The translations under genes were made by a program, and so were the position numbers. This document shows positions 562 to 21,895 of a stretch of DNA of 40,370 nucleotides, piece by piece. The notes under the pieces are model-generated. The model was given only the letters and a program-made list of their open reading frames with translations, was not told where the DNA came from and made no database searches. Origin of the DNA: a virus; the IMG/VR virus record IMGVR_UViG_3300007276_000104, positions 1 through 40,370 of that record; one strand, 5' to 3'. Positions within the stretch are counted from its first letter, which is position 1, and every line of letters begins with the position of its first letter.

Positions 562-3500
562 CTACATATTCATAGTACGTAAGAAATCTAATGATTGTCT
601 AAAATCTTCAGTATTTTTGAATCTTGGCAACAATCTTTTAGACTTATGATATAATTTTAGATCACCTTTATAGGGGCCAACTTTATATCTATCGCCCCAA
701 CTCCATGGTGTCATGTAATTCATTGTCTTGAATATCTGTTTAAGGTTACCTACAGCAGCCGTTGGTGTTTGTGCAATCTTAAATGCTTCAATAGGATTAG
801 CAAAAGTTGTAAGTTCAGACATTTGCCTTCTTAATAAATAAGTTAAAAATATATCTTCATCATCAATATCTCCATCACCTTCCATTATGCCAAAAGCTAA
901 AACAACTGCAGTCATTAATGCTACATCCGTCATAGTTTTTCTTACACCAGCTCTTTGTTTAGGAGTAAGTTCTTTCCATGATTTAGCAACACTAATACCA
1001 TCTTCTCTTGCGTCAGAAACTACTTTTGCTAAAAATCTAACGGTTGATACATAATATCCTTCCATATATTCTTTTTGATCCGCAGAATAAAATTCATCAG
1101 CTTCAGCCAACTCTTTGTCTGCAGGTTTAAATGAATTAGTAACTCCTCGAAATCTTCTTAAGTATCCAGGTATCATCCATTTTCTTAAAAAGAATCCCAT
1201 TTTACCTAACATATATCTCTGAGCATGAGCTTGAATATCATTAGTATATTGTCCGTGTAATTCATCAACCTTACTTCTTATTAAATTACGCGTTTCTAAA
1301 AGAATCAATTCCTGTCCTCCACCAGTTGTAAATGATGTGTTTTGAACTGCAGGATCTAATACCATTTCTTTACCACCTTGAGCATTAGTTTTAAAAGTAA
1401 TCATATCGACTAAACTTGCAGCCTTAGATTTAGATACAGTTGGTTGTCCATTAATATCTATCCAAGTACCTTTATCATTTTGAACTTTAATGCTACTTAA
1501 TATTGCATACATTACCTTACCTTGCATCATATGCTCTCCAATATTTGCTATTGGACGTAAAGTATCTTGATTCATTAGCCCTTCTATTCTAGATCCTTCT
1601 TCAAAATTATTCTTAAGATAACCTGGCCCCATTGTATTAAAATTAGACATAAGTAAATTAGTCTTAGACTTAGCAACATTAGCACCCATATCATTCATAA
1701 TATTTTTTAAATCAAAATTATAGAGCTGTTGTGCTTTCCTATAATCGCGTAAATTATATAAATCACCTCCAACAGCTTCAATTAAATTTGAAAATGTACC
1801 AGTAGTTGAATTCACAATACTGTTAGCATAATTAAATACAAGAGACACACTACCAAAGTATTTTAAAGCAGTTTTAGCTACTTGCTGTGTTTCAACAATT
1901 TTATTTCCAATTTTTATTTCAGGAGCTTTTTTAGTTGTAATGCTATATAATCTATTTTCTAATACAGATAATGCTTTTGTGTACTCTGCAGATTTAGTTC
2001 CAGACTCCCATAGAGGTAGTTTTGTTTGAGCATCAATTTTTTGTCTGCCTCTACCATCTAATACAGGATATTTCTTATTAGCCATTACCTCAGTTAACAC
2101 CAGTAATGTAGATTCAATTGCTTTTTTCTCTTCAAAATTCTTACCCATAATCGAATGTAGTAATCCTATTGTATGTAAATCATAAGACTGGTCAGACTCT
2201 TTTAATTTAGCTCTATACGGAGAAGGTAATCTTAATGTCTCGCCTTCTTTAAAATTTGTATAAGTTTCAGTATCAAAATCATCTTCTTGAGCTTCAATCA
2301 TTCTACTTATTGCATTTTTACTCATAGTTTTTATAGATTGTCCCTCAGCAATTCTTGAAGATGTTGTCTTCATTACTCCAGGTAATCTCATAAACTCTAC
2401 ACTCTTATATTTTTCAATTATAGAGTCTTTTTTATCATACATTGCATCAGTAATCCTGTTGTTTTGTTTTAGCCTTTGAAGTTCAGCAAATCTAATTGGA
2501 TCATTACTCCTTAATTCTTCGTATCTTTCATCTTTCCATTTATCAGTAGGCAAAGTTCTTTTTACCCTTTTACCATCAATAGTTTCAATTTTAGTATTAG
2601 TATTTGTATCTTTCCAGTGAGAATATTCACTACGAGCAATAGCTTCATTCATTGATATTGTCATTCTTTTGCCATTAGACATTTTAAATGAAACATGTTC
2701 AGCTCTTTCTCCAGACTTTAAATTTTTATGACCTTCTACAACAATTTGTCTTGCACCTTGTATAACAAGTTTTCTTTCAATAGGCTTACCAGTTTTAGTG
2801 CTAACAACATTTGAATTATAAAAGAACGCTGAATCACCTTCTGCATTTATATCTTTTTTAATTACATTGACATCTTTATATTTTTCATCATAAATCTCTT
2901 GGTCACTCATCTCGCGGGCCATTTGATTTTTTTCTTCTATAAACTCTGGCTTATATTCTCCAGTATAATACGAAGTTCCATCTTTAGAAACTACTATCAT
3001 TCCTTTATACTTTTTCCTCATGTCTCTACCCTTAGCATGCTCTCTAAATTTTTTATTAGCAGCATCTTCATTGGTAGCTTCTTCAGTTGCAAATTTCTCT
3101 ATATTTTGAGAAGCTTGATCTAACATTCTTGAAATTACTTGAAGATCTTTAGCTTTCATCTCCTTCTCAGATAAAAGTTGCATAGATAACTTACTCATTC
3201 TAGTTAATGAAGTTTCAGCTCTTTCTGTTGCTTTTTCTAATTTAATTCTTTCAATTTCATCTTTATTGGCTTGCATTTCTTGAATAATATACTCTCCTAA
3301 TTGCATCGGTGGTTTACTACCAACAGCAGTTAATTCTTCGTAAGTATTTTTAAATCCAAGCTTAGCAGACTCTTCAGTTTCAGTATCATGTTTAGCTAAT
3401 AATTCAGCGTAATGTTTTCTTGAGTTTTTAAGTAACTTAGCGTCTATTTCTTTACGTACACCATTAAGCTCTATAAGAAGATTTCTCATTGTTTTAAGTT

Positions 3501-4647
3501 CACCATCATCTAACTTAACAGTGTCTTTTAATTCTTCTAATAAACCTTGAAGTTCCTCTAATACATTAAATGATGCACTCCAGTTATAAGCTTTTCTTAA
3601 AGCGTTATTATCTAAAACACCTTCAGTCTCTCTTCTATCAATTTCCTTCTTCATAAAATGTAACTCTCTACGTGCCCAATTTAAGTATCTTACAAATCCA
3701 AACTTTTTATCAGACTCTTCATATTTTTGAAGTTTTTCTTGTAAATCCTTAATAGAAGATAATCTAGTTACTTTACCCGCTTTTATATTTTTACGTTCCC
3801 TTTTTTTAGCAGATTCAGTAGTTTTTATTTGACTCTTATATACTTTAGTAATAACACCTAATAGTTTATTGTATCCTTTTTCCATTCTAGCTTCCAAGGT
3901 ATCCATATCCTCTTCAGTCTTAGTTTTCTTAGATTGAGAAGTTGACAAATTTAAAGGTCTTAACTCTTGAGCAATCTCTTCTATTTGTGTAGCATTTATA
4001 TCTTTCACCTTATTGTTTAGCAATTCTTTTGAAAGGCTTTCAATCTCATTTCTTTCTAATCCTAATACTCTTTTAAGATAATCTGATAACCATGCCATAA
4101 AAGATTCCCATTTACTCTGATTCTCTCCATCAGCCCATATTTCTGAGCCTTCTCTTCCAATAGCTGTCACAAGTATTTCTTTATGAAGCATACTTTCAGA
4201 TAAATCTGGATACAGAGATTCAACTTCTGCCCACAAATCTGTATCGCGAAGTTGATCTAGTGCTCTTTGAAGTCTTTTATTTTTCAGACCACCAGGGAAA
4301 GAATCAATAAATACATGTCCGAATTCATGTATTGCAGTAGTTTTAAATAACTGATTAGGATTAATTAAAATTACAGGTTTTCCCGCAGCTTTAGTTCTTG
4401 GGTCATTACGACCAAGTAATCTTGAACTTTCAATGTTATCATCATATATGACCTCAACATTCATAGTTTTCTTTAAAGCATCCACTTTTCTTTCAAAAGT
4501 ATTTCTATCTTCTGCTTCATAATCAGAACCTTCTCTTTCTTCTTGAGCTTTATACGCTTCAATAATTTTAGGATCTGATGCTAGTGCTTGAATAAGTTGT
4601 TTCTCATTCAATTCACTACCTTTATATAAATATGTTTTACAACTCAT
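562..4647 (-). CDS. Giant virion cargo protein with N-terminal zincin metallopeptidase motif (1361 aa)
   Basis: This is the last gene of the late operon, 6 bases after the RNA polymerase gene; it ends with TAG. Residues 107-111 read HEFGH, an HExxH zinc-binding motif, preceded by a hydrophobic strand (PVILINP, 91-97) and followed about 46 residues later by LHKEILVTAIG, where Glu157 could be the third ligand as in gluzincins. From about residue 230 to 550 the protein is highly charged and probably coiled coil. The C-terminal half has no recognised domain apart from a short hydrophobic stretch near residues 1235-1250. Zincin-like domains have been described in large proteins next to the crAss-like virion polymerase. 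By size and position I infer a packaged, injected protein whose peptidase may process virion proteins or a host target. The catalytic role is inferred; the motif is seen. Confidence 0.75.
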   Translation of the reverse strand: MSCKTYLYKGSELNEKQLIQALASDPKIIEAYKAQEEREGSDYEAEDRNTFERKVDALKKTMNVEVIYDDNIESSRLLGRNDPRTKAAGKPVILINPNQLFKTTAIHEFGHVFIDSFPGGLKNKRLQRALDQLRDTDLWAEVESLYPDLSESMLHKEILVTAIGREGSEIWADGENQSKWESFMAWLSDYLKRVLGLERNEIESLSKELLNNKVKDINATQIEEIAQELRPLNLSTSQSKKTKTEEDMDTLEARMEKGYNKLLGVITKVYKSQIKTTESAKKRERKNIKAGKVTRLSSIKDLQEKLQKYEESDKKFGFVRYLNWARRELHFMKKEIDRRETEGVLDNNALRKAYNWSASFNVLEELQGLLEELKDTVKLDDGELKTMRNLLIELNGVRKEIDAKLLKNSRKHYAELLAKHDTETEESAKLGFKNTYEELTAVGSKPPMQLGEYIIQEMQANKDEIERIKLEKATERAETSLTRMSKLSMQLLSEKEMKAKDLQVISRMLDQASQNIEKFATEEATNEDAANKKFREHAKGRDMRKKYKGMIVVSKDGTSYYTGEYKPEFIEEKNQMAREMSDQEIYDEKYKDVNVIKKDINAEGDSAFFYNSNVVSTKTGKPIERKLVIQGARQIVVEGHKNLKSGERAEHVSFKMSNGKRMTISMNEAIARSEYSHWKDTNTNTKIETIDGKRVKRTLPTDKWKDERYEELRSNDPIRFAELQRLKQNNRITDAMYDKKDSIIEKYKSVEFMRLPGVMKTTSSRIAEGQSIKTMSKNAISRMIEAQEDDFDTETYTNFKEGETLRLPSPYRAKLKESDQSYDLHTIGLLHSIMGKNFEEKKAIESTLLVLTEVMANKKYPVLDGRGRQKIDAQTKLPLWESGTKSAEYTKALSVLENRLYSITTKKAPEIKIGNKIVETQQVAKTALKYFGSVSLVFNYANSIVNSTTGTFSNLIEAVGGDLYNLRDYRKAQQLYNFDLKNIMNDMGANVAKSKTNLLMSNFNTMGPGYLKNNFEEGSRIEGLMNQDTLRPIANIGEHMMQGKVMYAILSSIKVQNDKGTWIDINGQPTVSKSKAASLVDMITFKTNAQGGKEMVLDPAVQNTSFTTGGGQELILLETRNLIRSKVDELHGQYTNDIQAHAQRYMLGKMGFFLRKWMIPGYLRRFRGVTNSFKPADKELAEADEFYSADQKEYMEGYYVSTVRFLAKVVSDAREDGISVAKSWKELTPKQRAGVRKTMTDVALMTAVVLAFGIMEGDGDIDDEDIFLTYLLRRQMSELTTFANPIEAFKIAQTPTAAVGNLKQIFKTMNYMTPWSWGDRYKVGPYKGDLKLYHKSKRLLPRFKNTEDFRQSLDFLRTMNM

Positions 4648-4653
4648 AATATT

Positions 4654-7600
4654 TTATTTACATTGAATATTTTTATCTTCAATAATTTGTGTTAAATTGT
4701 CGCTTATTAATTGAATATCACTAGACTTTTGCTCTAAATAAGCATCATTCATGATTTCATCAAATTTTCTACCATTATTATCTATAAATGTTTCTTCTGA
4801 TTGCATGATACTATTAACACCTTCTTGAATCTTAACTTGAACTAATGGTGATGGGTTATTTTCAGAAACCATAGACTCAGTTATTTTCTGTTCTTTAGAA
4901 TATTCAAAACTTTTAAATTTACCTTTTGTAGATCCTAATTCAAATGTTCTTTTATAAACTGGCACTTCCATATTTTTACCTTCAGAATCTAATCTTCTTA
5001 CTGTTCCTACTTGCTCATATAAAAAATTATCAACTTTAGTCCACCCAGTTTGAGGATTATATGTAGCTATTCTTCCATTAACAAATTTAGGAAAAAATCT
5101 TGCATTTTTATCCACAGAACCAAATTCTTGTGATTTATTTAGTGCAGGCTTATATATAAATACATTCCTGTTACCTTTTAAGGTTTCCATTTTAGATACA
5201 TTAAGTGTTTTAACTATCTTAGGATTGTTTTTACTATGTCTTTGAAATTGTTCAACAAAATTATCATCAGTTGGCATCTCGTCAGCTTCTTTAATTGCAT
5301 CTCTAATTTCACCACTAATATCAAAATCTTTTAATATCTGGTGCGGAATATAGGAGAAGAATTGAGAAAGGTTGTTTTGGAATCCTGAACTTAAAAATGC
5401 ATATTTTACTAGATCTATTGCTAGTTCTTTATCAGGATGCATATTTTCATTATCTAATTTTCCATCTTTTTTATATAATTGTTTATTATATAAATCCATC
5501 CATCCTCTGTAAATTTGATTCTCATAATACGTTGGCTTATTTTTATTGTTAATACCAAGATACTTTTTATCTTTCCAAGTGCTAATCTCTAATTCTTCTA
5601 ATAAATAATTACGCTCTGCTTTACCTTCTGCAATAGCCAATTGTCTTTCCATTACTTGACTAGGAATACTTAAAGTGCCTTTATCTTTATTATCTTCAGT
5701 TAATTTTTTAAAGTTTTTGTTATTATCTTTAAATAATGTAGTCCCAGACATAATGTATGAGTAAAATGCACCATCAATAGCTTTACCTAATCTTGCGTCA
5801 GTAAGTAAATCTCCATTTGCTGTTTGAAAAGAAACAGTATTGTATGTGTCAATTGCTCCTTGAGTCCCAGATAAAAATAAATTAGACGACATAACTACAT
5901 CTTTAACAAATTCTAATGTATTTTCAGCATATGTACCTAACATAGTGCCCATGAATTTAGTTTCATAGTTTTGAATATTACCGTCTTCTTTTATTTTCTT
6001 TATCTTATTTTCATTAACCATTCTGTCTACATTAGATCCACCGGCACCTGCAGTATCAGACTTAGCGGCTATTACTGAGTCCCCGAATATCCTTCCCTGC
6101 TCTTGTAAAAATGACCAAGCTTTAAGTATTTCATAGTCTAAATCCCTGTCTCTTTCACCTTCAGTTTTAATATTTTTCTCTAATGCTGAAGTAGATAACC
6201 CTGCAACAGTTGCTCCAGATACATTTGCTGGTATTGGGGCAAAGCCATAGTTTACACGAATTTGGTCTAACGCGGAGCCTTTACCTATATTACCCTCATT
6301 ATCTTTAAGCATAATATCTTCAGCGGTAATACTCATTTGCTCTCTTTGTAAATCAACTAATTCTTTTAAAATTGGCTGACCTATAAATCTATTAACCCAT
6401 TTCATATCTGCACCTGCTCTTAATAACATAAATGTTACATTAGCTGTTACAGAATTATGATTTGCTCGAGCAATATATGGATCCTTGGCAATATCAACAT
6501 ATGCATTTAAGAATGCAGATAAATTATCAGCAATAGAATGAATATCTGTTGTTTCAGAATCAAAGAATGTAATAAACTTCTTCTTTCCTTTCTCCCCCGT
6601 TTCTTCTCTCTTGTTACCAACTCCAAGCCATCTATTAAGTTTAACATCTAACATTTGATTCATTACATGGTCAACCAGATGATTTGCAGTCTGACCTACA
6701 CCCATTTTTCCTGATAAATATTCACTTTTAGTTTCTAGTTGAGTAAGTGGAGAAAATAACTCCATATTCTTCATTTCAACTGCTGGAAACAATCCTCCTT
6801 TTAATTTTCCATCTTTTCCTTTAGTTCCTACAATGTCATCTTTTAATTGAGCACCATCAATTGACCTCATCATTGCGTCATAGGTTAATGGAGAGTTTAA
6901 TACAGCCTTGTATTGAGCCACAAGTTCATTCTGTGCTAACAACTTTTCTAATTGAGCCTCATAGTTCTCTTGGTCTTTAATCTCTGCTCTAAGTATCTCT
7001 TTTTGTGAAGCATTCTCTGATAACTTAGTTATTTTTTTAGGAAGTAAATGAGAATTTTCTCTTGTAAGTTTTGTTAGTTTCATGATTTCTGGATCATAAA
7101 CTAAAGTGTTTTGCATGGCAAATAACTTATCAATATCAAAATCACTACCAGTTTTAGCGGGTAGTCCATCATATACTATTATACTATCTCCAACTCCAGG
7201 AGGCAATACACCAACAATCTCTAAATAATCATTAGAAGACATCCCTTGATTAGGAATCCTATAAGTTATCATTTCAAGAGCTGATGGATCTAATAACGCC
7301 ATAGCAGAATTAATATCTTTACCTTCTAATTTAATTTTATGTTTTTTAAGAAGCTTCATTGCTTGAGTGTGAGTAATGAAAGCTTGCCCTGGTAATACTT
7401 TTCCTTTCTCAATACGAGGAGGTAGTAATCCTTTACCGTTATAATTTTTAGATACTATTGTAATTCCAGAATCTTCACCAATAGTTTCTAGTCCAAATGG
7501 AGATACTTGAATAAAACTTCCACCTTCAGTAGAAATTTTAGTCATCTTTCTATTCATTATGGACATAAAGATACTCTCAACTTTACCTTTAATTTGAGGT

Positions 7601-10600
7601 ATAGCATCTAACGGCATTTGTTTACGTAACGCGTCTAATACATTTTCATTACCACCTCTATCTTCAAACTCTCTAATAAGAGCATTGTAAATATACTGTT
7701 CGTCAGTAATGATGTTATTTTCATCAATACCGAATTCTCTTTTTATATCTTCTTTTCCTAAGTTTGATAACTTGGATACAGTTTCGTGTATCCTAGTTGC
7801 AAGATCTTTACCTTTTATTTTCTTACCGTTTAATTCATAATCTTTAGTCATTTGAAGTCCCTCAAAAATATTCTTTTGAATTTGAGATCCAACGTTAGTA
7901 TCATGCATTAATTTAATTGGTAAATCTTGCTGTAATTTCCATCCCCTGTTATTTAATATAACAGGATTTAACTTAATGTCAGCTTCAGGCAATAATTCAG
8001 TGGTTCCGTCTTTGTGAATAGACGTAGGTTCAACAGCCCCTACCTTAATTCCATCAATAGTAACTACTTCATGAATTTCTAAATGTCCTTCTTTATCACC
8101 ATATGGTTTACCAGTCTCAGGATTCTGAGTCATTTTATTGTATATGACCTGCATAGGGGTACCTTTAACTAGTTCAGGTATCAATACAGCTTGAGAGTAT
8201 TTTAAATACACTGGGCGACCCTCATTAATTTCAAAGTACACACCTTTTAATGGCTGAGCTGCTAATTTCATTTCTGAAGGAGACATAGATTCTCCTGATT
8301 TCATTTTAGAATACACCTTATCATGTTGTGGCCCCCATTGTCCAAGCTTTTGTTTAAGAAATCTCCATCTACGAGGAGTTATCCATGCTTGAGCATCAGT
8401 AGTATTGACTCTTTCATACGCCTTAGCAATAGATTTATCTTTAACAGAGTTTCTAATCTTGTCAACATATTGAGATGCAACTTCAACACCATTAATAGTA
8501 GCTTGATTAAATCTTAGTGCATCACCATTTTCTAATCTTAATTGTAATCCATCAGTATATGTAGCAGGAATACGTTTAATTAAATCTGCATTATTTTTAT
8601 AGTAAGCTGGATCTCCAGAAAATAATTTAGTATATTCTACTGAAGCTATTAATCCATTCATGAAATAATCTCCTGCAAGAGCTACCATATCATTTTTATA
8701 ATGTTTAAGTAACTTTTCACTAATATTATCTATTTTTTTTAGCTTATTAACATGCTCATTAACTCTATCAGATAAATCAGCTTCAATAAATTTACGAACT
8801 ATTTCCTCTTGCTTAGATGACATACCTTCGTATTTGTCACTTTCAAAGGTTTTACCATATATAGCTTTTCTTAATTCTGCATATTTAGGATCTGTATTAT
8901 CTTTACTAAATTCAGGAAATATTTGAGACTTTAATCCATTGCCATTTTCTCCATGATAATGTACAACTTTCTGAATATTTTTATCTGAATTCTCACGGTT
9001 AACTCTTTTCATCCTGTTATATTCATCGAGGAAGTAGCCAAATGAGACATCGACAGCTTTGGGTGAAATATATGTCTCACCATTATCCATAGCTTGAATG
9101 CTAGATTTGAATACATCAAAACCTTCCAGTAAAATTCTTCTTGATTTATCTGCAGCAATTATAGTAGGAAACATAGACTTATCGGATTTACTTAAAATTC
9201 CGTTAAGCATCTGTACCAAATTTGCATTAATTTGGTCATTTGTTGTAATTGAGGTGTTTTCGACACCATCATTTTTACCTTTTGACTTAAATGATGAGTC
9301 TAATCCTGCTTTTAAGTTATTAAGTCTATTTTCTATTGCATTATTTCTTTCTTCTGTGCTTTCTGTAACATCTAATGCTAATAAATGTGAAATCCATTTT
9401 GAATTATGTTTTCCTTTATCCATTAACATTTTTTCTAAACCAGATATATCTTTCTTCCACTCATTAATCTTGTTAGAAATATATGTAGGATTGGACACAG
9501 TATATCCTGACTTACCTTGATTAAGTAATACAGAACTATCACTCATATCAGTCATTCTAAATGCAACAGCTTCTGCAAATGCTTTAGTAAATGATTCTTG
9601 ATTAAATACATTTTCAAAAGAACCAGCTTCATTTGTAAATTGATATCCTTCGCTTAGGATACCATTCTTTGTACCAAGCATATACCCAATAGCTTTATAA
9701 AGACCATCAATTGTCTGTGGAATTTTTTTATCACCACCATTCATGATTATCATTGTATTCACATCATCAGCAGTAATATCAGTTGCTCCTAATCTTTCAA
9801 GTATTCCAACTATATCAACTGCAGCTTTTCCACCTGCATCATAAATAGCATCTTTATATGCTTCAGACTCTCTATTAGTTCCTGCTAATTGAAGATTTGA
9901 AGTCCATTTTTTATATCCAGTTCTTGTATCTTTAAGTATTTGTGCTAATACCCCTCTTTCTCTATCAGCTAATTTACCATTTTCACCAATAAATCTAGCA
10001 ACAAATCCATTATTCCATTTATTAGTAATTTGACTTTGTCTACTATTTGTAGATGTCGCGTTGATTACAGTATATTCACCTCCATCAACTTGTGTTACGA
10101 AGTAATTTAAATTAGTCTTGCTAAATGCTTGAACAAATTCAGTTATTTTATTAATATTTTTATCAGCAATATATCCGTCTAAAGTATCTAACAAATCATG
10201 CATCCACATTTTAGTATCTTGAAGTTCAAAAATTTTATCATACATTACATCGAATATATCAACAACATTTTCACCATGACCATAACCAACTTCATCAACT
10301 AATATTTTATTTAATGTATTCCATACATCATCAAACTTAGCAAAAGATGGGACTTCTAAAAAAGCATCTTCAACAGGAACAGAAACTTCATTACCATTCT
10401 CGTCTTTAGCAAATACTCTTTCTTCAATTTGAGAAAGCATAATTTTAGTATTAGCAGTTGCAGAATCTTTAGAATTAGTTTCAAAAGATTCTTTGATATT
10501 AACTCCACCACCTTTTTCTTCTTCAGTTACCTCAGTAATTGTATTGCCCTCAGCGTCAGTAATTCTTTCGCGTACTTTTATTCCTAAAGCTGATATAGAA

Positions 10601-11157
10601 GATATTAATTCATTTCTAAAATCATCTTTATTTTTTTCTACTAATGCTATGCGATCAAGTAATACAGCTTCATTATCTCTTCCTTTAATATCTTCTCTAT
10701 AATTACTTATAGTTCTGTCTATTGATTCAGCAATTCTTTTGTTTTCTAAATCAGAAGCGTCCCAATCATTAAAAGATTTTTTGCCTCCTTCACGTATAAA
10801 ATTATACAAAAGGTGGTTAGTAACTAGTTCTACTTCTTGTGCAGTAAATTCGGAGAATTTATATTTGTCAATATAATCTCTATCTCCATTTTTGTCAGTG
10901 AAGAACCACATATTTGTGGTTAAGTCTTGTTTAAGAAGTGGCTCACCATTAGTTTTTAATAATCCTACTTTTGGTAAATTCTTCTTGTTTGAGTTTTTGT
11001 AATTATATTCCCAGTCTCCAAACCTTTTCATGAAAGAAGGGCCAATGACTTTTGCGTAAGCAATTTCAGCAGCCTGTTCATCTTGAAATATTTCTTTGAG
11101 CTGATCATACAATTCGGATTTTTTCCCATTTGCGATGTTCAGTACATTACATTCCAT
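4654..11157 (-). CDS. Single-chain virion RNA polymerase, crAss-like (phi14:2 gp66 type, 2167 aa)
   Basis: The protein contains DFDID at residues 1339-1343 (7129-7143) in the context AKTGSDFDIDKLFAMQ, the metal-binding catalytic loop of the double-psi beta-barrel polymerases. The characterised homologue is gp66 of Cellulophaga phage phi14:2, about 2,180 residues, related to eukaryotic RNAi polymerases of the QDE-1 type and to cellular beta/beta' subunits. The size and the position of the motif agree closely. A conserved-looking segment near residues 1080-1100 (PIKLMHD...VGSQIQKN) probably belongs to the first barrel. The N-terminal ~900 residues are unrecognised and helical. Known for the family: it is packaged, injected and transcribes early genes. 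The gene sits between two giant cargo genes, 16 bases after the upstream one. Assignment is strong; promoter specificity cannot be read from sequence. Confidence 0.93.
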   Translation of the reverse strand: MECNVLNIANGKKSELYDQLKEIFQDEQAAEIAYAKVIGPSFMKRFGDWEYNYKNSNKKNLPKVGLLKTNGEPLLKQDLTTNMWFFTDKNGDRDYIDKYKFSEFTAQEVELVTNHLLYNFIREGGKKSFNDWDASDLENKRIAESIDRTISNYREDIKGRDNEAVLLDRIALVEKNKDDFRNELISSISALGIKVRERITDAEGNTITEVTEEEKGGGVNIKESFETNSKDSATANTKIMLSQIEERVFAKDENGNEVSVPVEDAFLEVPSFAKFDDVWNTLNKILVDEVGYGHGENVVDIFDVMYDKIFELQDTKMWMHDLLDTLDGYIADKNINKITEFVQAFSKTNLNYFVTQVDGGEYTVINATSTNSRQSQITNKWNNGFVARFIGENGKLADRERGVLAQILKDTRTGYKKWTSNLQLAGTNRESEAYKDAIYDAGGKAAVDIVGILERLGATDITADDVNTMIIMNGGDKKIPQTIDGLYKAIGYMLGTKNGILSEGYQFTNEAGSFENVFNQESFTKAFAEAVAFRMTDMSDSSVLLNQGKSGYTVSNPTYISNKINEWKKDISGLEKMLMDKGKHNSKWISHLLALDVTESTEERNNAIENRLNNLKAGLDSSFKSKGKNDGVENTSITTNDQINANLVQMLNGILSKSDKSMFPTIIAADKSRRILLEGFDVFKSSIQAMDNGETYISPKAVDVSFGYFLDEYNRMKRVNRENSDKNIQKVVHYHGENGNGLKSQIFPEFSKDNTDPKYAELRKAIYGKTFESDKYEGMSSKQEEIVRKFIEADLSDRVNEHVNKLKKIDNISEKLLKHYKNDMVALAGDYFMNGLIASVEYTKLFSGDPAYYKNNADLIKRIPATYTDGLQLRLENGDALRFNQATINGVEVASQYVDKIRNSVKDKSIAKAYERVNTTDAQAWITPRRWRFLKQKLGQWGPQHDKVYSKMKSGESMSPSEMKLAAQPLKGVYFEINEGRPVYLKYSQAVLIPELVKGTPMQVIYNKMTQNPETGKPYGDKEGHLEIHEVVTIDGIKVGAVEPTSIHKDGTTELLPEADIKLNPVILNNRGWKLQQDLPIKLMHDTNVGSQIQKNIFEGLQMTKDYELNGKKIKGKDLATRIHETVSKLSNLGKEDIKREFGIDENNIITDEQYIYNALIREFEDRGGNENVLDALRKQMPLDAIPQIKGKVESIFMSIMNRKMTKISTEGGSFIQVSPFGLETIGEDSGITIVSKNYNGKGLLPPRIEKGKVLPGQAFITHTQAMKLLKKHKIKLEGKDINSAMALLDPSALEMITYRIPNQGMSSNDYLEIVGVLPPGVGDSIIVYDGLPAKTGSDFDIDKLFAMQNTLVYDPEIMKLTKLTRENSHLLPKKITKLSENASQKEILRAEIKDQENYEAQLEKLLAQNELVAQYKAVLNSPLTYDAMMRSIDGAQLKDDIVGTKGKDGKLKGGLFPAVEMKNMELFSPLTQLETKSEYLSGKMGVGQTANHLVDHVMNQMLDVKLNRWLGVGNKREETGEKGKKKFITFFDSETTDIHSIADNLSAFLNAYVDIAKDPYIARANHNSVTANVTFMLLRAGADMKWVNRFIGQPILKELVDLQREQMSITAEDIMLKDNEGNIGKGSALDQIRVNYGFAPIPANVSGATVAGLSTSALEKNIKTEGERDRDLDYEILKAWSFLQEQGRIFGDSVIAAKSDTAGAGGSNVDRMVNENKIKKIKEDGNIQNYETKFMGTMLGTYAENTLEFVKDVVMSSNLFLSGTQGAIDTYNTVSFQTANGDLLTDARLGKAIDGAFYSYIMSGTTLFKDNNKNFKKLTEDNKDKGTLSIPSQVMERQLAIAEGKAERNYLLEELEISTWKDKKYLGINNKNKPTYYENQIYRGWMDLYNKQLYKKDGKLDNENMHPDKELAIDLVKYAFLSSGFQNNLSQFFSYIPHQILKDFDISGEIRDAIKEADEMPTDDNFVEQFQRHSKNNPKIVKTLNVSKMETLKGNRNVFIYKPALNKSQEFGSVDKNARFFPKFVNGRIATYNPQTGWTKVDNFLYEQVGTVRRLDSEGKNMEVPVYKRTFELGSTKGKFKSFEYSKEQKITESMVSENNPSPLVQVKIQEGVNSIMQSEETFIDNNGRKFDEIMNDAYLEQKSSDIQLISDNLTQIIEDKNIQCK

Positions 11158-11173
11158 TATATATGTGTATTAA

Positions 11174-14100
11174 TTATTTTTTACATTTAGGCTGTTTTTT
11201 GTCATCTTCTTTTTTAACAGCATTGTCATTTTGAACTTTAGTGTTATTAGGTTTTGCACTATTTGTTGATCCATCACCAACACTTTTTCTTCTAGTTCTA
11301 ATTTTTCTTACTTTAGACGAAGGTATATCTTTTTTAGCAGGTGTGCTAATTTTAGTATCATCAACTTTTGAGGATTTTAAAGTAAAACCTGATCCTTCGT
11401 TATCCGCGTCAAAAAGGTATTGGTTATTTTCACGCTTCAATCTTACCTTTCCTACTTTCTCACTTCTATCAAGAATTTCATATTCCAAACCAGTGTCTTC
11501 ATGTATAACTACATCTCCGTCATTAAACTCAGATAGAGGTTTTGGTTCTGGAGACTGTTTCTCGATAGCAATAGCAACCTTAGCTCTTTCATCTTGTCTA
11601 AACTGAGGCATTTTTCTTTGTTCAGCGGTTAAGCTTTTCCACCAATCAATAGAATCTTTTACAGTATATAAAGCAGGTTTAGTTACACCAGACATATCTG
11701 GTGCTTTTGTATTTTCAAGAGTAATTTTATTTACAACTTTCATTGCAACATTTTTATCAATAGCAGGTGCAGGCTTGCCTAACGCTGTTATTTCTTTACC
11801 ATCCCATACATAAAATTTACCTGGAAATTGTTTTTTAAGCTCAGCATTAATTTTCATTCTTAATCCAGCGTCATCATCTGTAATAAGACTATCAGGACTA
11901 ACAGTTGCTGTGTCAACAACAGTTTTAACCACCTCTCCTTTTTTAACTTTAACTGGTTTAGCAGGAACTTTACTGTCAACAGGCTTAGCATATATCTGAA
12001 CTCTTCTTCTTTGTCTTCCAGATTCTTGACCACCAGCAGCTTCATATTGCTCAATAGTTTCAGTATCAAATTCAGGTGCACCAATTACTACGTTAGTATT
12101 AATAATTCTGTTGTCCATAACAAAATCTCTATACCCTGGATAATCTTTAGTGTTATTCCACATGTTAAGATTAAACTGTCTTCTTTTTGTATCTCTTAAG
12201 AAATCGACTAATTCTTGTCTTTTAGAAACTCTATTATCTGGTTTTATATGATTGCCTTTATCACCAAAATACAAATTAATACCACTCATATATAATTGTG
12301 ATGTTAATCCTTCAGTTTTTTGACTAACATATACAAACATGTTAATTATATCTTTAAGTTCCGGATCACCTTTAAGAAATTCAACTTCAGGCTTTAATTC
12401 AGTACGAATTCTTTCTTGTAATTCAGGGTCTGTTAATGATAAAGGTGTTGATAAATTATATTTCTTTTTACCTTTCTTTTCATTAGGCACAGCAATGTCA
12501 ATTAAAATATCAGCTAAAGTCTCAGCCTGTTCATTAGTATTCTTAAGGAAATTTAATCTAACAGGAAATGGTGTACCATCAGCTTTTCTTAATAAAACAA
12601 ATAATCCACCTCTATAAGGCATAGGTTTGCCATCCTCATCTTTTACAGAAAATTCTGTTGCTTCAAATCCTTGAGATCTTACAGGTTTTCCACCAACTCT
12701 AGTTGCGTCATATAATTCTCCATCAATATTTGAATAAGCTATATGAGGAGTCTTTTTGCTGTCTTTAACTTGCTTTAAATCCTTAATACTATTTTCCGCT
12801 ACCACTCCATTCTCATCTACTTGTGTTTGAAGTTGGCCCCCTGAAGTATGTTTTATCTCAGAAGAAACAACTTCTCCACGAAATAATCCATCTATAATAT
12901 TTTTTCTTTCAGTAACATAATTCTCTTCATATCTTTTTTTGTCAATATCAGGAGCAGTATTTGCTGGTTTTTCTGGCAAATGACTAAAAATACCATTCCC
13001 ATCTCCTATAAATACTTGTACAGGAAAGTGATCATAAACACTTTGAGGTATTTCAGATTTTTTAGCTTGAGCAGTTTTAAAATCTCTATATGCTTTTTTA
13101 GCCCTATCGGTGCCATATTTAATAAACTTTTGATCTACTTCATATCTTACTTTAGTTCCAATCTTAGAAGATCCATCTTTAATCCAATCTCTATAAGCTT
13201 TGTTAGTAACATTATTAGCATCAAGAAATGCAATACTTTTACCATTATTAATTTTAGTTTCTAATGCTTCTTCTTGCTTTTCCTGAACCTCTTCTTCGAA
13301 CCAAGCTTCTTCTTCTCTATGCTCATCTTCTAATGCTTCTTCAACAGGAACAACAACATTATTAGCTGGAGTTTTAATGTTTGCATTTTTAGATTGAGTT
13401 TTAGTCTTTAATTCTTTTTCAGCTTCCTCAGAAGCCTCTGTTGCTAAAGCCTCTTCTTCTTCTTTTTGTAGAGCAGCTATTCTTTCACCTAATTGTTTTA
13501 ATACAGTATCTTTCTCACTCTTTTTTGAGTATCCAGTCACATCACCCTTTTCAACTCTTGACTTAAATTTTTCAAGTAAAGCTTTGTCAGTAGTATTATT
13601 AATCATTTGAGCAGTTTGCTTATTAATTAATGCTTTCTGAAATTCTTTATCATTCAATCTTGTCAATTGCATGGTATTTTCAGTAATAGCATCATTAAGT
13701 TCTAATTGCTCTAAATATCCATCAGCTATTTCAAATTGAGTATCTTCATTATATACTTTTCCAGCTCTTCTATTTCCTTCTTTTTCATCAGATGTTAATC
13801 CTCCTTTAACTGGCTTACTTAATTCTTTAACTTCTTTTTCTAATTGAGATAAATCATAATTATGATTTTTAATTATTTCAGATTTAAGTGCCCTGCTCTC
13901 TTTATCTACTGCAGTTTCTAAAGCCTCAGTTTGTCTTCTTATAGCTTCTTTTGTAGCAAGTATTTTAGACTGAACATCTTTTCTTTTCATATATCTATCA
14001 GTTGGTTTTCTGATAGCATCATGCTTAATATCTTTTATTCTTTTTTCTTGCTCTTGTTTAGATTTTGTAATTCTTTCAGAGTGTTTGTTGTTTTCATATT

Positions 14101-15769
14101 CAATACGAGACATAGCTTTTACTATGTTGGCATCAGTATTTTTATTCTTAGCTTTATTTAAGTTTTTATAATGAATTTCTTTTACCTCTTCTGCAATTTT
14201 AAGTGCACGGTCAGCTCCTTCTTTAGCAAGTTCTGAGTTCCACTCGTATCCATTATCTTTTTGAAATTGCTCTTGCTCTTCAGCAGTCATTTCAGGGCCA
14301 TTTTTAATAGCACTCATAACCATTTCTAAGTTATCGCTATCAATACCATCAAGAACCATTTCTAAAATGATTTCATCTTGAGCCATTTCTATTTCTCTTT
14401 CAGTTCCATTTACATCTGCTTGATTTTTTTGGATTTGTAGAGCTGCTAATACCTTATTTCTATCGCCTAATGCTGTATTAAAATTTTCTGATGCACTAGC
14501 TTCAAATTCTTTTTTATCTTTAGATTTAAACGCGTCATTTACTTTTGGCCCTACTGCTTGAAATACAGATCCACCTAATCCACCAAATAGCATTGATGTC
14601 TTAGTCTCATCAGAACTCATTATTTCAGATAATTGATTATCGTACTCTTCTTTAGAAATTAAACCTGCACGTAATTCAGTTCCTAGTTTAGCTTTAGATG
14701 ATATATAACTTTGATATCCTTCTTCACCAGCTTCAGATAAAAATGTGCCAGCTATTGCTCCAGCTTTTTTAGCCCATTGTGGTACATCAAGACTAGTAGT
14801 AAGTTTCCTTGCTACCTCCATTTGTCTTGTTACTGGATTAAATACTTTACCGATTGATAAATATTGAACCATATCTTGAGCTAACATTGCCCAACCATGC
14901 TTATAGTTTTCAGAAGCTCCTTCTGCAGCACTTAATCTAGCTTCTTCATCTGTAAATAATTTATTTGTCTTTGGATTAATCTCTGTTAACCTAGTATTGT
15001 ATATATCTTCAAATGTACCAGAAGCTTCCATTGTATTTTCAATGTGTCTTGATACAACTGCTTGTGTAATGCCTTCAGTCATCCATTCAGCCTGAATACC
15101 CATTTTCTTAGATATATCAAATGCTTCTTTAGATATTTCTCTTCCTAATTTTTTGCCAACACCTCTACCAGCTCGTCCAGCAATTTTACTAACACCACGA
15201 CCAAGCATACCTAATCCTTTAGTTGCTGCCATAGACGGCAACATCATAGATAAAGTAGAAGCAACAGAAACAGAGTTTTTAAACCAGTATCCTGAATCTA
15301 ATAAATTCATTTCTCCTGGTGTCTTTTCATATATTTGTGTAGCATCTTGCGTACCTTCTCTTATAGACTTACCTATATCAGAAAACCAGTTAGCAAATTC
15401 TTTTTCATCACCAGATACAAGATTAGCCATTCCTTCCCAATCTAATAGATATCCAACACCTTCGATAGTTCCACCAACAATTTCACCAACAACAGCTTGA
15501 GTAATAGCATTACCCAACTGGTCAGTCCATGGTTGTAATTCAGCTCTTCTAGTATTTAATCCTCCTTGAATTTCATCAATAGTGGCTCCGTCATCCCATT
15601 GAGAATCACCTAATCCTGAATCACCAACATTAACCCTTCTATTCCAATCAGCATTTTTTCCCGGATCACTTGGTAATACACTATTGAATTCTTCTTCAGA
15701 AAATAAATTACCTTCAGGATTATCTACTATGTCTAAACTACCGTCTAGTAAGTCATCTAATTCATCCAT
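11174..15769 (-). CDS. Giant virion cargo/ejection protein (1531 aa)
   Basis: This very large protein starts with an acidic region, followed by Ala/Gly-rich, partly hydrophobic helices at about residues 86-110 and 165-205 (ending in the basic Gly-rich run RGVSKIAGRAGRGVGKKLG). A further Ala/Gly segment (AKKAGAIAGTFLSEAGEEGY) lies near residue 340. Residues ~480-860 are strongly charged and predicted coiled coil. A small beta-rich module occurs late (SEFNDGDVVIHEDTGLEYEI), and the extreme C-terminus is Lys-rich. It follows the 664-residue gene with a single base between stop and start (TAA-A-ATG), so the two are translated together. Gene order matches the crAss-like block of large capsid cargo proteins ahead of the virion polymerase. 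I recognise no enzyme motif; a membrane-interacting ejection role is inferred from the amphipathic segments. Confidence 0.7.
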   Translation of the reverse strand: MDELDDLLDGSLDIVDNPEGNLFSEEEFNSVLPSDPGKNADWNRRVNVGDSGLGDSQWDDGATIDEIQGGLNTRRAELQPWTDQLGNAITQAVVGEIVGGTIEGVGYLLDWEGMANLVSGDEKEFANWFSDIGKSIREGTQDATQIYEKTPGEMNLLDSGYWFKNSVSVASTLSMMLPSMAATKGLGMLGRGVSKIAGRAGRGVGKKLGREISKEAFDISKKMGIQAEWMTEGITQAVVSRHIENTMEASGTFEDIYNTRLTEINPKTNKLFTDEEARLSAAEGASENYKHGWAMLAQDMVQYLSIGKVFNPVTRQMEVARKLTTSLDVPQWAKKAGAIAGTFLSEAGEEGYQSYISSKAKLGTELRAGLISKEEYDNQLSEIMSSDETKTSMLFGGLGGSVFQAVGPKVNDAFKSKDKKEFEASASENFNTALGDRNKVLAALQIQKNQADVNGTEREIEMAQDEIILEMVLDGIDSDNLEMVMSAIKNGPEMTAEEQEQFQKDNGYEWNSELAKEGADRALKIAEEVKEIHYKNLNKAKNKNTDANIVKAMSRIEYENNKHSERITKSKQEQEKRIKDIKHDAIRKPTDRYMKRKDVQSKILATKEAIRRQTEALETAVDKESRALKSEIIKNHNYDLSQLEKEVKELSKPVKGGLTSDEKEGNRRAGKVYNEDTQFEIADGYLEQLELNDAITENTMQLTRLNDKEFQKALINKQTAQMINNTTDKALLEKFKSRVEKGDVTGYSKKSEKDTVLKQLGERIAALQKEEEEALATEASEEAEKELKTKTQSKNANIKTPANNVVVPVEEALEDEHREEEAWFEEEVQEKQEEALETKINNGKSIAFLDANNVTNKAYRDWIKDGSSKIGTKVRYEVDQKFIKYGTDRAKKAYRDFKTAQAKKSEIPQSVYDHFPVQVFIGDGNGIFSHLPEKPANTAPDIDKKRYEENYVTERKNIIDGLFRGEVVSSEIKHTSGGQLQTQVDENGVVAENSIKDLKQVKDSKKTPHIAYSNIDGELYDATRVGGKPVRSQGFEATEFSVKDEDGKPMPYRGGLFVLLRKADGTPFPVRLNFLKNTNEQAETLADILIDIAVPNEKKGKKKYNLSTPLSLTDPELQERIRTELKPEVEFLKGDPELKDIINMFVYVSQKTEGLTSQLYMSGINLYFGDKGNHIKPDNRVSKRQELVDFLRDTKRRQFNLNMWNNTKDYPGYRDFVMDNRIINTNVVIGAPEFDTETIEQYEAAGGQESGRQRRRVQIYAKPVDSKVPAKPVKVKKGEVVKTVVDTATVSPDSLITDDDAGLRMKINAELKKQFPGKFYVWDGKEITALGKPAPAIDKNVAMKVVNKITLENTKAPDMSGVTKPALYTVKDSIDWWKSLTAEQRKMPQFRQDERAKVAIAIEKQSPEPKPLSEFNDGDVVIHEDTGLEYEILDRSEKVGKVRLKRENNQYLFDADNEGSGFTLKSSKVDDTKISTPAKKDIPSSKVRKIRTRRKSVGDGSTNSAKPNNTKVQNDNAVKKEDDKKQPKCKK

Positions 15770-15770
15770 T

Positions 15771-17765
15771 TTATTGGTTTTTTTGAGATTTACCTAATAC
15801 TTGTTTTGAGTTAGCAATTTGATCATAATGACTTGTTACTTTATTAATACTTCTTTGCATCTCATCATCATACATTAATTTATATACTTTAGGCAAAACT
15901 GGTGTTCCATCATCATTAAGTGCTATTTGTATAGCACCACTTCCAGGAACTCTTTGAAAGTTTAATTGGTCTATTTCTTCTTTAGAATACTCTGTTTCAC
16001 TTCTAATTGTAGCAGCTTCGTAAGTTTTGGTTTGTGGATTAAGTTCAGTAACAACCATTTCATTTACAGGTATTCCTGATGCAGAACGAATCATATGTTT
16101 ATTATAATTTTTCCCACTCTTAATAGCCTCATTCATTCTTGATATAGAACCAAGCAATTGTCTAGGATGACCATCATTTTGAACATACACTATTGGAGTA
16201 TCACCTTTATCATATTTTCCAGTATTTTCATCTATTTCAATCTGAACTACAAATGCACCAGGCATTTCAATATGTCCTGGGGCAAATCCAAGAACTTTTC
16301 CTTTTCTCATTAAAGAATTAAATTGATCTAGCTCTAAGCCCATTTGACTAGCAACTACATCTTTAGCTCCTATTTCTTTTCCTGCTATTTTCATAGTTTT
16401 TTGAGCAAAAGAACCGTTTGTATCTCCATCTCCTAATAAATCTTCACCTAATGCTACAAATGTATTATTTGGGTTAGAAGGTTTAATGACTTTAGACATT
16501 GTTTTCTCAGCCTTTAAAGCACCATTTTTATATATATCATAAACTTCTTTATCAGTATAAGGTAAATTAGTTTCTGGGTTTATTGAGCTTAATACAGGAT
16601 TAGCTTTTCTTAATGAGTCTAAACTTTCTTTTAATTCTGCAACTTCTTTATTTTCTTTTTCATATGACTTATTTGCCATATCAAAAGTTGCTAATTCCTT
16701 ATTTTTTTCTTTCCAAGGTATTGGAAGATTTTTAATTAATTCTCTATCTTTTTTAATTCTATCTTCTCTTTCTTTATCATATTGTGGAGAGACATCTCTC
16801 AATTGACCACTAGTAAACAATACATTTGCTCTTTCTTCACTAGGTAAATTAAATGCTTCATTCCAAATACCATCTTGATATGTTATATCAATAGTATCCC
16901 ATTGTTGAGAAGGATCTATCATACCTTTTGTTGGATCTAAAGATGTTGGTTGAGGTTGCATTCCTGATGGTAATAAAGTAGATTTTTCATTAATATCTTT
17001 ACGTTGAAATACATTACCTGCAGATTGAGCAGATTTCATTATCTCTTCTTCTGCATTAGCAATACCTAATCTTTCCATTTCTTGAGCATAAGCCATTAAA
17101 TCTTGATCACCTTTTAAAGCTTGAGCAATAACTTTTTCTATATGCTCAGCAGGTAATGTTTTATGAATATAACTACCGTCTCTATAATATCCATTTTCAT
17201 CAACCTGAAGTCCTGTAGCTTTAGCAATCTCCTGTGGTGTCATTTTAGACGCAATATCTCTACCGCGTTGCATTATATCAATATGAGCTGCACCAACATA
17301 GTCTTGATACTGTCCGCCTTCAGTAACACCTTTATATTGTGTTAATGCTTCTTGAAGTCCTAATCTTTTTTGGTCAGCAGTTAAATCTTTACGATTCATT
17401 ATGTTTTTCTCATTCTCCTTATATTGATTATATGCGGCAGCAGCCTGACCTGTTTTACCTTCTAAACTTAATTCATTAGTCTTTCTATTACGTAAGCCTT
17501 TTACTCTATTAATTAAGTTTCTATCAACTCCACTATTCATTAGTTGATCTGATAAACTTCCTGCTTCTTTTTTAAACGCACCAATTTGTCCAGATACGTA
17601 ATCTTTATCTGGGCCTAATGCTTGAGATTCTAGTGCTGCAAATTCATCTAATGCCAATTGTGCTTGGTCATCTTGCTGTTGCTTAGCTAGAGGCACCATC
17701 ATTATCTCGTCAAGAGATAAGGGTTTAAAAGATGAAGTAGTAATATCTGGTGTTATTCCTGCCAT
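15771..17765 (-). CDS. Internal virion (cargo) protein, helical (664 aa)
   Basis: The N-terminus (SSFKPLSLDEIMMVPLAKQ, residues 11-29) resembles a leader seen on internal structural proteins of many Bacteroidota phages. It is followed by a Gln/Ala/Lys-rich helical region (about 30-250), a charged linker near 330-390, and a more globular beta-containing C-terminal part (about 430-660). There is no membrane segment or enzyme motif. It lies between the glycine-zipper protein and the 1531-residue cargo protein in one operon with short gaps. A role as a cargo or core protein, analogous to T7 internal core proteins, follows from position and composition, not from a diagnostic domain. Confidence 0.7.
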   Translation of the reverse strand: MAGITPDITTSSFKPLSLDEIMMVPLAKQQQDDQAQLALDEFAALESQALGPDKDYVSGQIGAFKKEAGSLSDQLMNSGVDRNLINRVKGLRNRKTNELSLEGKTGQAAAAYNQYKENEKNIMNRKDLTADQKRLGLQEALTQYKGVTEGGQYQDYVGAAHIDIMQRGRDIASKMTPQEIAKATGLQVDENGYYRDGSYIHKTLPAEHIEKVIAQALKGDQDLMAYAQEMERLGIANAEEEIMKSAQSAGNVFQRKDINEKSTLLPSGMQPQPTSLDPTKGMIDPSQQWDTIDITYQDGIWNEAFNLPSEERANVLFTSGQLRDVSPQYDKEREDRIKKDRELIKNLPIPWKEKNKELATFDMANKSYEKENKEVAELKESLDSLRKANPVLSSINPETNLPYTDKEVYDIYKNGALKAEKTMSKVIKPSNPNNTFVALGEDLLGDGDTNGSFAQKTMKIAGKEIGAKDVVASQMGLELDQFNSLMRKGKVLGFAPGHIEMPGAFVVQIEIDENTGKYDKGDTPIVYVQNDGHPRQLLGSISRMNEAIKSGKNYNKHMIRSASGIPVNEMVVTELNPQTKTYEAATIRSETEYSKEEIDQLNFQRVPGSGAIQIALNDDGTPVLPKVYKLMYDDEMQRSINKVTSHYDQIANSKQVLGKSQKNQ

Positions 17766-17783
17766 GATGTAAATATATTAATT

Positions 17784-19367
17784 TTATACTGTTCTTGCTG
17801 CTTTTCTTGCTGCTTTTTTTCTTTTCTCTGAATCTAAATGTTGTCCTTGTGCTCCGTATGATAATCCCATTAATTCAGGATATCTTTTAAACAACTCTTC
17901 TCTGCCTACTCCTCCAAGATCATTTCCTAGTTGAGAAAGTAATTTAGATTTATTAGTTTGATAGCCTGCATCTAATTGCAAATTAGTCATTTTTTCAGTA
18001 TTAGACTGATTTAAATTAGCTTGGTCAACACTTAAATTAAATTGTTGTCCTGCTCTTTTTTCTTGTCTATTCTCTGCACCTGCTGATTGATAAGCCTGTG
18101 ATTGAGCTTTTTGTCCCTGTAATTGAGATGCCAATAAATTAGCTCGAGCTGAAGATCCTGAACCACCAGTAGAGCTTAATATTGCATCGCGGTTATTTAA
18201 TACACCTTTTTGTACTGTATTTTGCAATCCTTTCTCATCAACTAATTGCTCATTATACCTGTTACCTAATCTATCAAATCCAGCCTGTTCTGGTTTTTTA
18301 AGATTAGCAAGCTGAGCTAAATTCATTGCTGCGGGAGCATATCTTAATAATTCTGTAGGATTAAACTTAACATCACTACTAAAATCAGGATTAGCAGGAT
18401 TCATTCTGTTATTTAAGTCATCACCGATATTATCAACATTCTTTTGAAAATACTCTTCTTGTAGTTTTTTATCTGTAAATTCATTATTTCTAACTGAATC
18501 ACTAAGAGGGTTTGATTTAAGATAATTTTGTATTGATGGTTCAGTCTTTTCTTCTAAACCTGTATTAGCTAACCAGCCTCTAGTACCTAATGGATTTTTT
18601 GGATCTTCTACACCTTTACCTTGAAATTCAACTGGATTTTGCCACATACGTCCAGTATCCTTATAATGCTTATATTCTTTTAAAAATTGTTCTGAATCTT
18701 TAATTGGATCACCACCATCAGCATACATATTGCCTCCTTTCTTATAACTATTAGTTGAAGCGTTATGTTGATATAAATCATTGTTATAGTCAGCTTCTTG
18801 AGCATCTTTTTGTTTCCTTGCTCCGCCAACTAATCCAGCAACTCCACCAACTACACCTCCAATAGCAGCACCCCATGGGCCAAATGACATTCCTGCTTGA
18901 GCACCTGCCATAGCACCAGAAGCTGCACTAGCACCTTTAGACGGTACATCTGGAGCAGCAGTCTTACCACTTGTGTCAATTCCTGTATCACCAAAAGCCA
19001 TATTAGCAAGACCTAATGCTCCAGTTGCTGCACCCATATATCCTCCTACACCTGGCCCCCCTGTTCCTACTTGGGGAATATCGCCCCCATTGTTAAGTTG
19101 GTTTGACGCAGGCTCAGAGCCTAAAGGCTCTGCACCATTTTCAGCGTCGGCTGAAAATTTTGCCGCCTGCTGAGGTTTAGTTCTTGCTTCTTGAATAGAC
19201 TTAACGTGTTCTTGAGCTTGTTTTAATCTACCTTGTAGTTCATTTAGAGTAGCAATATCTTCAGGACTATTTCTTCCTTCAAATCTTTTAGCTATTAATG
19301 CACTAGCCTCTGAGAATGATTTCCCTTTTAAGAAAGCTGGTAAATTGAATTTTTTAATTATGTCCAT
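17784..19367 (-). CDS. Glycine-zipper ejection-type virion protein (527 aa)
   Basis: An N-terminal charged helix (about 1-65) leads into an Ala/Gly-rich low-complexity region (about 95-182). Its core, residues 150-182, is a hydrophobic glycine zipper (GPWGAAIGGVVGGVAGLVGG) capped by Arg/Lys. The rest is polar, Asn/Gln-rich and helical with a Lys-rich end. Glycine zippers of this kind occur in phage ejection proteins that insert in the host envelope, as in T7 gp14-like proteins. Ten bases separate it from the upstream lysozyme-like gene and 18 from the downstream gene. The motif KKGGNMYADGGD (about 208-219) is of a type often seen in Bacteroidota phage virion proteins. Function inferred: a pore- or channel-forming cargo protein for DNA and polymerase delivery. 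Confidence 0.7.
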   Translation of the reverse strand: MDIIKKFNLPAFLKGKSFSEASALIAKRFEGRNSPEDIATLNELQGRLKQAQEHVKSIQEARTKPQQAAKFSADAENGAEPLGSEPASNQLNNGGDIPQVGTGGPGVGGYMGAATGALGLANMAFGDTGIDTSGKTAAPDVPSKGASAASGAMAGAQAGMSFGPWGAAIGGVVGGVAGLVGGARKQKDAQEADYNNDLYQHNASTNSYKKGGNMYADGGDPIKDSEQFLKEYKHYKDTGRMWQNPVEFQGKGVEDPKNPLGTRGWLANTGLEEKTEPSIQNYLKSNPLSDSVRNNEFTDKKLQEEYFQKNVDNIGDDLNNRMNPANPDFSSDVKFNPTELLRYAPAAMNLAQLANLKKPEQAGFDRLGNRYNEQLVDEKGLQNTVQKGVLNNRDAILSSTGGSGSSARANLLASQLQGQKAQSQAYQSAGAENRQEKRAGQQFNLSVDQANLNQSNTEKMTNLQLDAGYQTNKSKLLSQLGNDLGGVGREELFKRYPELMGLSYGAQGQHLDSEKRKKAARKAARTV

Positions 19368-21090: not shown

Positions 21091-21827
21091 GGTTTTATTT
21101 TTTGATGCTTTAACGTTAATACATAAGATAATGTTCCGTATCCTACCTTAAATGTTCTCCATCCTCTCCATATTCTAATGCCTAATATTTTATAATCGAC
21201 AATTTTTGTTTGACTATATCTAAACATTAGTTTGTTTTTTCCTTTTGCATAGAACCAAATATAACCAGTTCCTATAATTGAAGTTTCATAAGAAATAAAA
21301 TCTCCTTTATTAACTTGCCATTTATCTTCCCATGGAAACTTAGGTATATATTTTAATCCAGAGTCAACAACCCATATTCCATCTTGAGAAAGTTTTGTTT
21401 TATAAGATGATAAATTAAGAGTAAATTCATGATTTATTTTCCATAAATCATCTATAACAGTGGTTACTCTATCTATGTTATTATTACCAACTTCTGCAGG
21501 TGTAGAATCTACTAAGAATTTACTTCTTTTAAAATTCCATACAGAATTTCTTGTATGCCAGTTCCACGCTATCCAAAAGTTTTCTTTTTTAGAATTTGGG
21601 TTACCTCCTTTTTCAATTATATAAGAAGAGTAATCTGGTGCCCAACCTTCTTTAGCTTCTCTCTCATCATCCATCCATATCCAAAACCAACTATCTTTAC
21701 CTTTATGTCTAAATAGCCAAGCAAAGTTAAACATTAACCATGCAGTAGAAAAACCAAAAGCTCCTACTAATACGGAGCCTTTGACAAAATTCCAAATACT
21801 TTTAATTTGTTCTTTATTATAACGCAT
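21081..21827 (-). CDS. Membrane-anchored aromatic-rich protein, DUF7338-like (248 aa)
   Basis: One hydrophobic segment lies near the N-terminus (about 16-38, SVLVGAFGFSTAWLMFNFAWL). It is followed by a Trp-rich region with WFWIWMDDE and later WHTRNSVWNF, a spacing I associate with the phage family DUF7338 (function unknown). The C-terminal half is beta-rich with many Trp/Tyr/Lys. It is the first gene after the muzzle gene and overlaps the lysozyme-like gene by 10 bases. A host-type promoter ends only 4 bases before the ATG, so its own transcript would be leaderless. It could be an envelope protein made by the infected cell rather than a virion part; the family call is tentative. Confidence 0.6.
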   Translation of the reverse strand: MRYNKEQIKSIWNFVKGSVLVGAFGFSTAWLMFNFAWLFRHKGKDSWFWIWMDDEREAKEGWAPDYSSYIIEKGGNPNSKKENFWIAWNWHTRNSVWNFKRSKFLVDSTPAEVGNNNIDRVTTVIDDLWKINHEFTLNLSSYKTKLSQDGIWVVDSGLKYIPKFPWEDKWQVNKGDFISYETSIIGTGYIWFYAKGKNKLMFRYSQTKIVDYKILGIRIWRGWRTFKVGYGTLSYVLTLKHQKIKPWK

Positions 21828-21873: not shown

Positions 21874-21895
21874 ACACACAATTAGTGTTGTGTGT
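21874..21895 (-). other. Short inverted repeat across the end of the muzzle gene
   Basis: An 8-bp perfect stem (21874-21881 with 21888-21895, ACACACAA/TTGTGTGT) encloses a 6-base loop and spans the muzzle stop codon. No U-tract follows in the minus direction, so it is not a convincing terminator. It lies 12 bases upstream of the -33 element of the next promoter and might be a weak stop, an mRNA 3' end stabiliser or an operator. Confidence 0.4.

Follow-up and report, generated by a model that had tools for sequence, protein, structure and literature searches.

The DNA analyzed here, referred to as the window, comprises the 40,370 nucleotides of IMG/VR virus record IMGVR_UViG_3300007276_000104, and it raises the question of what is encoded by its 2,167-residue open reading frame at positions 4654–11157, when the product would act, and which DNA it would read. 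A first-pass annotation had assigned the frame to a single-chain virion RNA polymerase of the phi14:2 gp66 type, citing its length, a DFDID motif at residues 1339–1343, and a setting between giant cargo genes. These features are borne out. The frame starts with ATG, contains zero internal stops, and lies on the minus strand, which the annotation had not given; it is flanked by reading frames of 1,361 residues (562–4647, minus) and 1,531 residues (11174–15769, minus). DFDID, a catalytic (metal-binding) motif of the DFDxD form, is encoded at 7143–7129 (minus), the only place in the contig that matches its degenerate codon pattern GAYTTYGAYATHGAY, and it is unchanged across seven aligned full-length homologues.

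In a phmmer search of all PDB chains, the sole match was 6vr4_A, the virion-packaged RNA polymerase of phi14:2 (E 2.6e-218, residues 2–2027 in two stretches), and a tblastn search of 50,697 phage records returned phi14:2 as the top match, with 30.6% identity at 94% coverage. Because of these two results, the similarity lies beyond chance. The tblastn matches extended to 136 records, mostly from crAss-like phages. Identity to phi14:2 gp66 is about 31–34%, and the C-terminal ~130 residues of the window polymerase do not align with it. Relatives at 58–79% identity occur at six IMG/VR loci, a profile search recovered 34 relatives, and a tree built on the polymerase core pairs the window protein with that of locus L003 (91% identity) within a 13-member clade, apart from phi14:2. 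At the level of sequence, the window polymerase is confirmed as a further member of the known gp66 family and a full-length homologue.

The first-pass annotation had also expected a double-psi β-barrel fold to be predicted around residues 1080–1400, and structure prediction did not contradict this. An AlphaFold model of residues 818–1620 (6298–8706, minus), built from 22 sequences, reached a pLDDT of 74.6 and a pTM of 0.73 and was matched by Foldseek to the polymerase core of 6vr4 (E 6.2e-49, query-normalised TM 0.69). Far weaker matches were obtained to phage P32 gp64 RNAP, cellular β′ chains, and the plant RNA-dependent RNA polymerase RDR2 of maize, and the best matches among viral models were crassvirus proteins. 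The predicted core is of the gp66 type, with two double-psi barrels on one chain, the barrel topology being read off the 6vr4 match. A 2021 Nature paper on gp66 reportedly describes a cleft-blocking (self-inhibited) domain. Searches of Pfam and PHROGs with the polymerase both returned zero matches, which would be in line with a structural or ejection protein devoid of polymerase function, in which DFDID and the size are coincidental. The near-whole-length homology to 6vr4 and phi14:2, the invariant DFDID, and the model match to 6vr4 contradict that reading, to which we assign a negligible probability.

Variant forms of the polymerase were seen among the relatives. At L050 (~1584–16377), two overlapping reading frames (3256 and 1681 residues, stop to stop) take the place of the single chain, the break lying shortly ahead of the region with DFDID, an arrangement that recalls separate β and β′ chains; no intron family was found at the split. 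Inserts ahead of the DFDID region, at about the same point, are present in L036 (residues ~1292–1410) and L032 (~1266–1433), the L036 insert resembling a NADAR/DUF1768 domain. Longer polymerase frames of 3521–4732 residues are present in L029, L031, L043, L041, L042, and L048. The L029 frame carries a gp65-like HExxH motif, so that the gp65-like protein and the polymerase look fused, and L041, L042, and L048 have a long N-terminal extension of the polymerase.

The window is a fragment of a larger genome, its relatives measuring ~100 kb, and Pfam searches identified muzzle, ring, capsid, and cargo genes of crassvirus type in it, including those for the muzzle protein (21882–25937, minus; crAss_MUZ, 6.8e-205) and the major capsid protein (34580–36079, minus; Crass_capsid, 2.4e-157). 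The capsid protein shares 46–50% identity with Steigviridae and less than 31% with the other crassviruses compared. The crassvirus structural and cargo proteins, together with a capsid protein closest to Steigviridae, mark the window phage as a crassvirus of Steigviridae type (Crassvirales). The gene order of the window is that of phi14:2 g065–g074, and the polymerase gene takes sixth place in a late-strand cargo operon, within a transcription gene block that includes gp65-like and gp67-like neighbours. All operon genes lie on the minus strand. The first is a 248-residue reading frame of unknown function (21081–21827), followed by crassvirus cargo protein 1 of the crAss001 gp45/phi14:2 g070 type (19378–21090, 570 residues; Pfam crAss_CARG1, 9.1e-19; PDB 7qog_M, which is crAss001 gp45, 1.9e-9), a g069-like internal virion protein (17784–19367, 527 residues; 46.9% identity over 179 residues to phi14:2; phrog_6056, internal virion protein), and a g068-like virion protein (15771–17765, 664 residues; E 2e-22 to phi14:2). 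The 1,531-residue flanking frame encodes a virion protein at the gp67 position, assigned by gene order and a weak match (22% over 399 residues, E 3e-11), and the 1,361-residue frame encodes a homologue of phi14:2 gp65, an RNA polymerase associated protein (28% identity over ~716 residues, E 1e-81).

HExxH motifs were observed in two of these proteins. The gp65-like protein has the zinc-peptidase-like HEFGH at residue 107, near its N-terminus; HEF[GA]H is kept in ten relatives' loci, and phi14:2 gp65 has HEIMH. Cargo protein 1 has HERVH at residue 456, HExxH is also present in L003 and L007, and phi14:2 g070 contains two HExxH motifs.

At the head of the cargo operon, a pattern scan located a strong host-type (Bacteroidetes −33/−7) promoter of the form TTGAC-N18-TATATTTG (21862–21832, minus), which ends four bases ahead of the ATG of the first reading frame. 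A site of the same form occupies the same place in phi14:2 and in the related contigs G001, G002, and G003. Across the window, the late strand carries 7 copies of the full −33/−7 pattern where 2.7 are expected, and the late blocks of phi14:2 and G003, like that of the window, show a modest sense-strand excess; early blocks contain 0–1 sites each, with no excess found there. This excess was not taken as proof on its own. In our reading, the operon would be transcribed by the host polymerase late in infection, which agrees with rifampicin data (PMC10136315). Between the convergent early and late blocks, a hairpin with a T-run (502–537, plus) is a likely terminator, judging by its sequence.

A model can be proposed in which the virion RNA polymerase (vRNAP) would be made late from the 21-kb cargo operon headed by the host-type promoter, packed together with its gp65-like and gp67-like partners and cargo protein 1, and injected with the DNA, after which the early genes would be transcribed, as has been shown for phi14:2. 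As a further step, the vRNAP would start at a small hairpin element that heads the early block and lies outside the window contig. We infer packaging in virions from homologues detected by mass spectrometry, namely phi14:2 g065–g070, for which the record annotation states detection by MS/MS proteomics, and crAss001 gp47, gp49, and gp50 (PMC10172136). In phi14:2, gp66 is a virion component, and it transcribes the early genes in vivo in a rifampicin-resistant manner (PMC7886860, PMC10136315, PMC8375218). The product of the window gene is very probably the catalytic chain of a crassvirus vRNAP from the phi14:2 gp66 lineage, made late, packed, injected, and used for early transcription.

Instead of being injected cargo, an active polymerase of this family might do most of its work in the infection cycle that produces it, for example in late transcription; crAss001 gp49/gp50 are transcribed in the middle phase, and same-cycle action has been suggested for them (PMC8375218). 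That role is very improbable here: the window gene belongs to the late cargo operon and lies on the late strand, an arrangement shared with phi14:2, whose corresponding product carries a virion-protein annotation, and the head of the operon bears the host-type promoter. For the injected enzyme, the first-pass annotation had proposed that early transcription would begin before any host factor is used. This is too strong, in that the virion RNAP of coliphage N4 requires host gyrase and SSB (PMC4496689); by analogy, the window polymerase may receive host-factor help of such a kind, which is compatible with all results.

Among characterized enzymes, phi14:2 gp66 (PDB 6vr4) resembles the window polymerase in being a single chain with DFDID and a similar length (2180 versus 2167 residues), and in lying between gp65 and gp67 neighbours on a late strand oriented convergently to the early block. 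It belongs to another lineage, however, whereas the window protein clades with IMG/VR contigs. The gp49/gp50/gp47 proteins of crAss001 likewise form a Steigviridae virion polymerase set, with a DFDVD motif in the catalytic frame and accompanied by cargo protein 1, but two of the three polymerase genes are on the early/middle strand, whereas all are in the late operon of the window. Phage P23-45 has another virion RNAP with homology to the cellular enzymes (PMC10770324); unlike the window polymerase, it is fused to the tape measure protein of a long-tailed phage.

The promoter had been described as unknown for this phage, which still holds for the window contig; in relatives, a candidate element has now been found. 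Because the early region is missing from the contig, the promoter read by the vRNAP is not in the window, and the promoter proposal rests on relatives. Exact k-mer enrichment in the early regions of phi14:2, G001, and G002 yielded no long repeated promoter word. A shared element was first spotted by eye in the late/early divergent gap of genomes that contain the early region, as a C/T-rich motif and a short covarying hairpin at fixed spacing, pointing into the early genes. The pyrimidine-rich box, with the environmental-phage consensus CCCCACTCTTTTT, is followed at an offset of 33–38 in most sites by a stem of 4–7 bp, mostly GGG(G)x/x′(C)CCC, with a loop of 3–5 nt and a variable loop-closing pair (A-T, T-A, G-C, or C-G). 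The hairpin loops resisted alignment with MAFFT, and a script that recombines the hairpin halves served as the covariation test: a stem of at least 4 bp is formed in 22 of 24 sites, whereas the 500 recombinations averaged 13.4 such sites and never exceeded 18. In G009 and in the first sites of G008 and G010, no clean stem stands at its usual position.

The specificity of the element was assessed with matrices. With a first matrix of eight sites, the tested genome being left out, the phi14:2 site was the best match on the 49-kb sense strand (25.1 versus 8.8 for the next separate site), and the G007 site was likewise best; G010 ranked third, and G009 failed. A pattern scan of IMG/VR gave 25 matches, a vRNAP is encoded by two of the contigs newly found, each of ~100 kb, and the element occupies the divergent gap, facing the early genes, in G017, G033, G015, G022, and G023. 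When the matrix was derived solely from marine/environmental sites, the corresponding site took first place on sequence in crAss001, cr128_1, and G013; DAC15, cr106, and cr112 depended on the hairpin term, and cr126 and cr111 failed. In the final test, which used 17 training sites, left out the tested genome, and combined sequence and hairpin scores, all ten complete gut Steigviridae genomes had their genome-wide best match in the expected gap, as did none of five other crassviruses. In each of the ten genomes, the element was on the strand opposite to the capsid gene and the reversed-sequence control scored lower. These leave-one-out numbers represent strong support rather than a formal probability, because the hairpin weight was hand-chosen, four of the ten genomes also contributed training sites when not tested, and the ten include close relatives (crAss001, cr112, cr128, and cr85).

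Sites are located at ~97995–98062 in the phi14:2 record, 182–137 (minus) in crAss001 (MH675552), 1845–1800 (minus) in DAC15, and 4335 (plus) in cr128_1. Scans for the element drew a blank in p-crAssphage, cr55_1, cr118_1, cr50_1, and FPSV-S29. It was likewise not detected in the window, G001, G002, or G003, four contigs that, from their gene layout, do not appear to reach the divergent gap; G001 ends within a T-rich stretch just ahead of it.

The hairpin element is a candidate, still unproven, promoter of the vRNAP that would be N4-like by convergence. The analogy is a natural one, because the N4 polymerase, although unrelated in fold, reads small GC-rich hairpins extruded by host gyrase. Both enzymes belong to phages for which a virion-injected polymerase is known or proposed; the early promoters of N4 are GC-rich hairpins, at which the virion RNAP needs host gyrase for hairpin extrusion as well as SSB (PMC4496689), and the candidate hairpin heading the crassvirus early genes is mostly GC-rich. 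In contrast, N4 vRNAP is a T7-like enzyme, and hairpin binding by the crassvirus enzyme is hypothetical. With confidence a little short of even, we propose that the Steigviridae element is the promoter of the single-chain vRNAP and that crassvirus and N4 virion polymerases independently came to read small DNA hairpins.

Two other functions have to be weighed against a promoter. The exact direct terminal repeat annotated for DAC15 (1–1842) ends inside the element, as might be the case for a packaging or genome-end signal such as a terminase site; an end signal needs only one copy, however, and G008 has four and G010 two, placed before different early reading frames in the same orientation, which makes this function unlikely. 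The position of the hairpin, 21–228 nt ahead of the first early ATG, would also suit a regulatory RNA that forms a structured 5′ leader on the early mRNA, with an unrelated promoter upstream. This we judge to be quite unlikely, given that Rfam contains zero matching families, the only other common feature seen upstream is a T-rich stretch, and two genomes leave just 21 nt between stem and ATG.

In the literature searched, which did not extend to the 2021 Nature paper on gp66, no promoter of any crassvirus virion polymerase is named. A precise, family-wide candidate makes the promoter question directly testable with the phi14:2 enzyme, for which in vitro activity has already been reported. If correct, the promoter assignment would account for the selection of early genes by an injected enzyme and would add an instance of convergence with N4. 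With the polymerase itself, a family represented by one solved structure gains a well-supported clade that is known from environmental contigs only; the promoter candidate is a by-product that matters more.

For the window phage, the element is predicted to be present in the missing part of the genome, since G008, which carries four copies, is a member of the same 13-member clade (as L036 in the polymerase tree). Elsewhere in the early block, tmRNA-like and tRNA-like intergenic sequences were noticed by eye in the phi14:2 gap before g006 and in the early stretch of G009.
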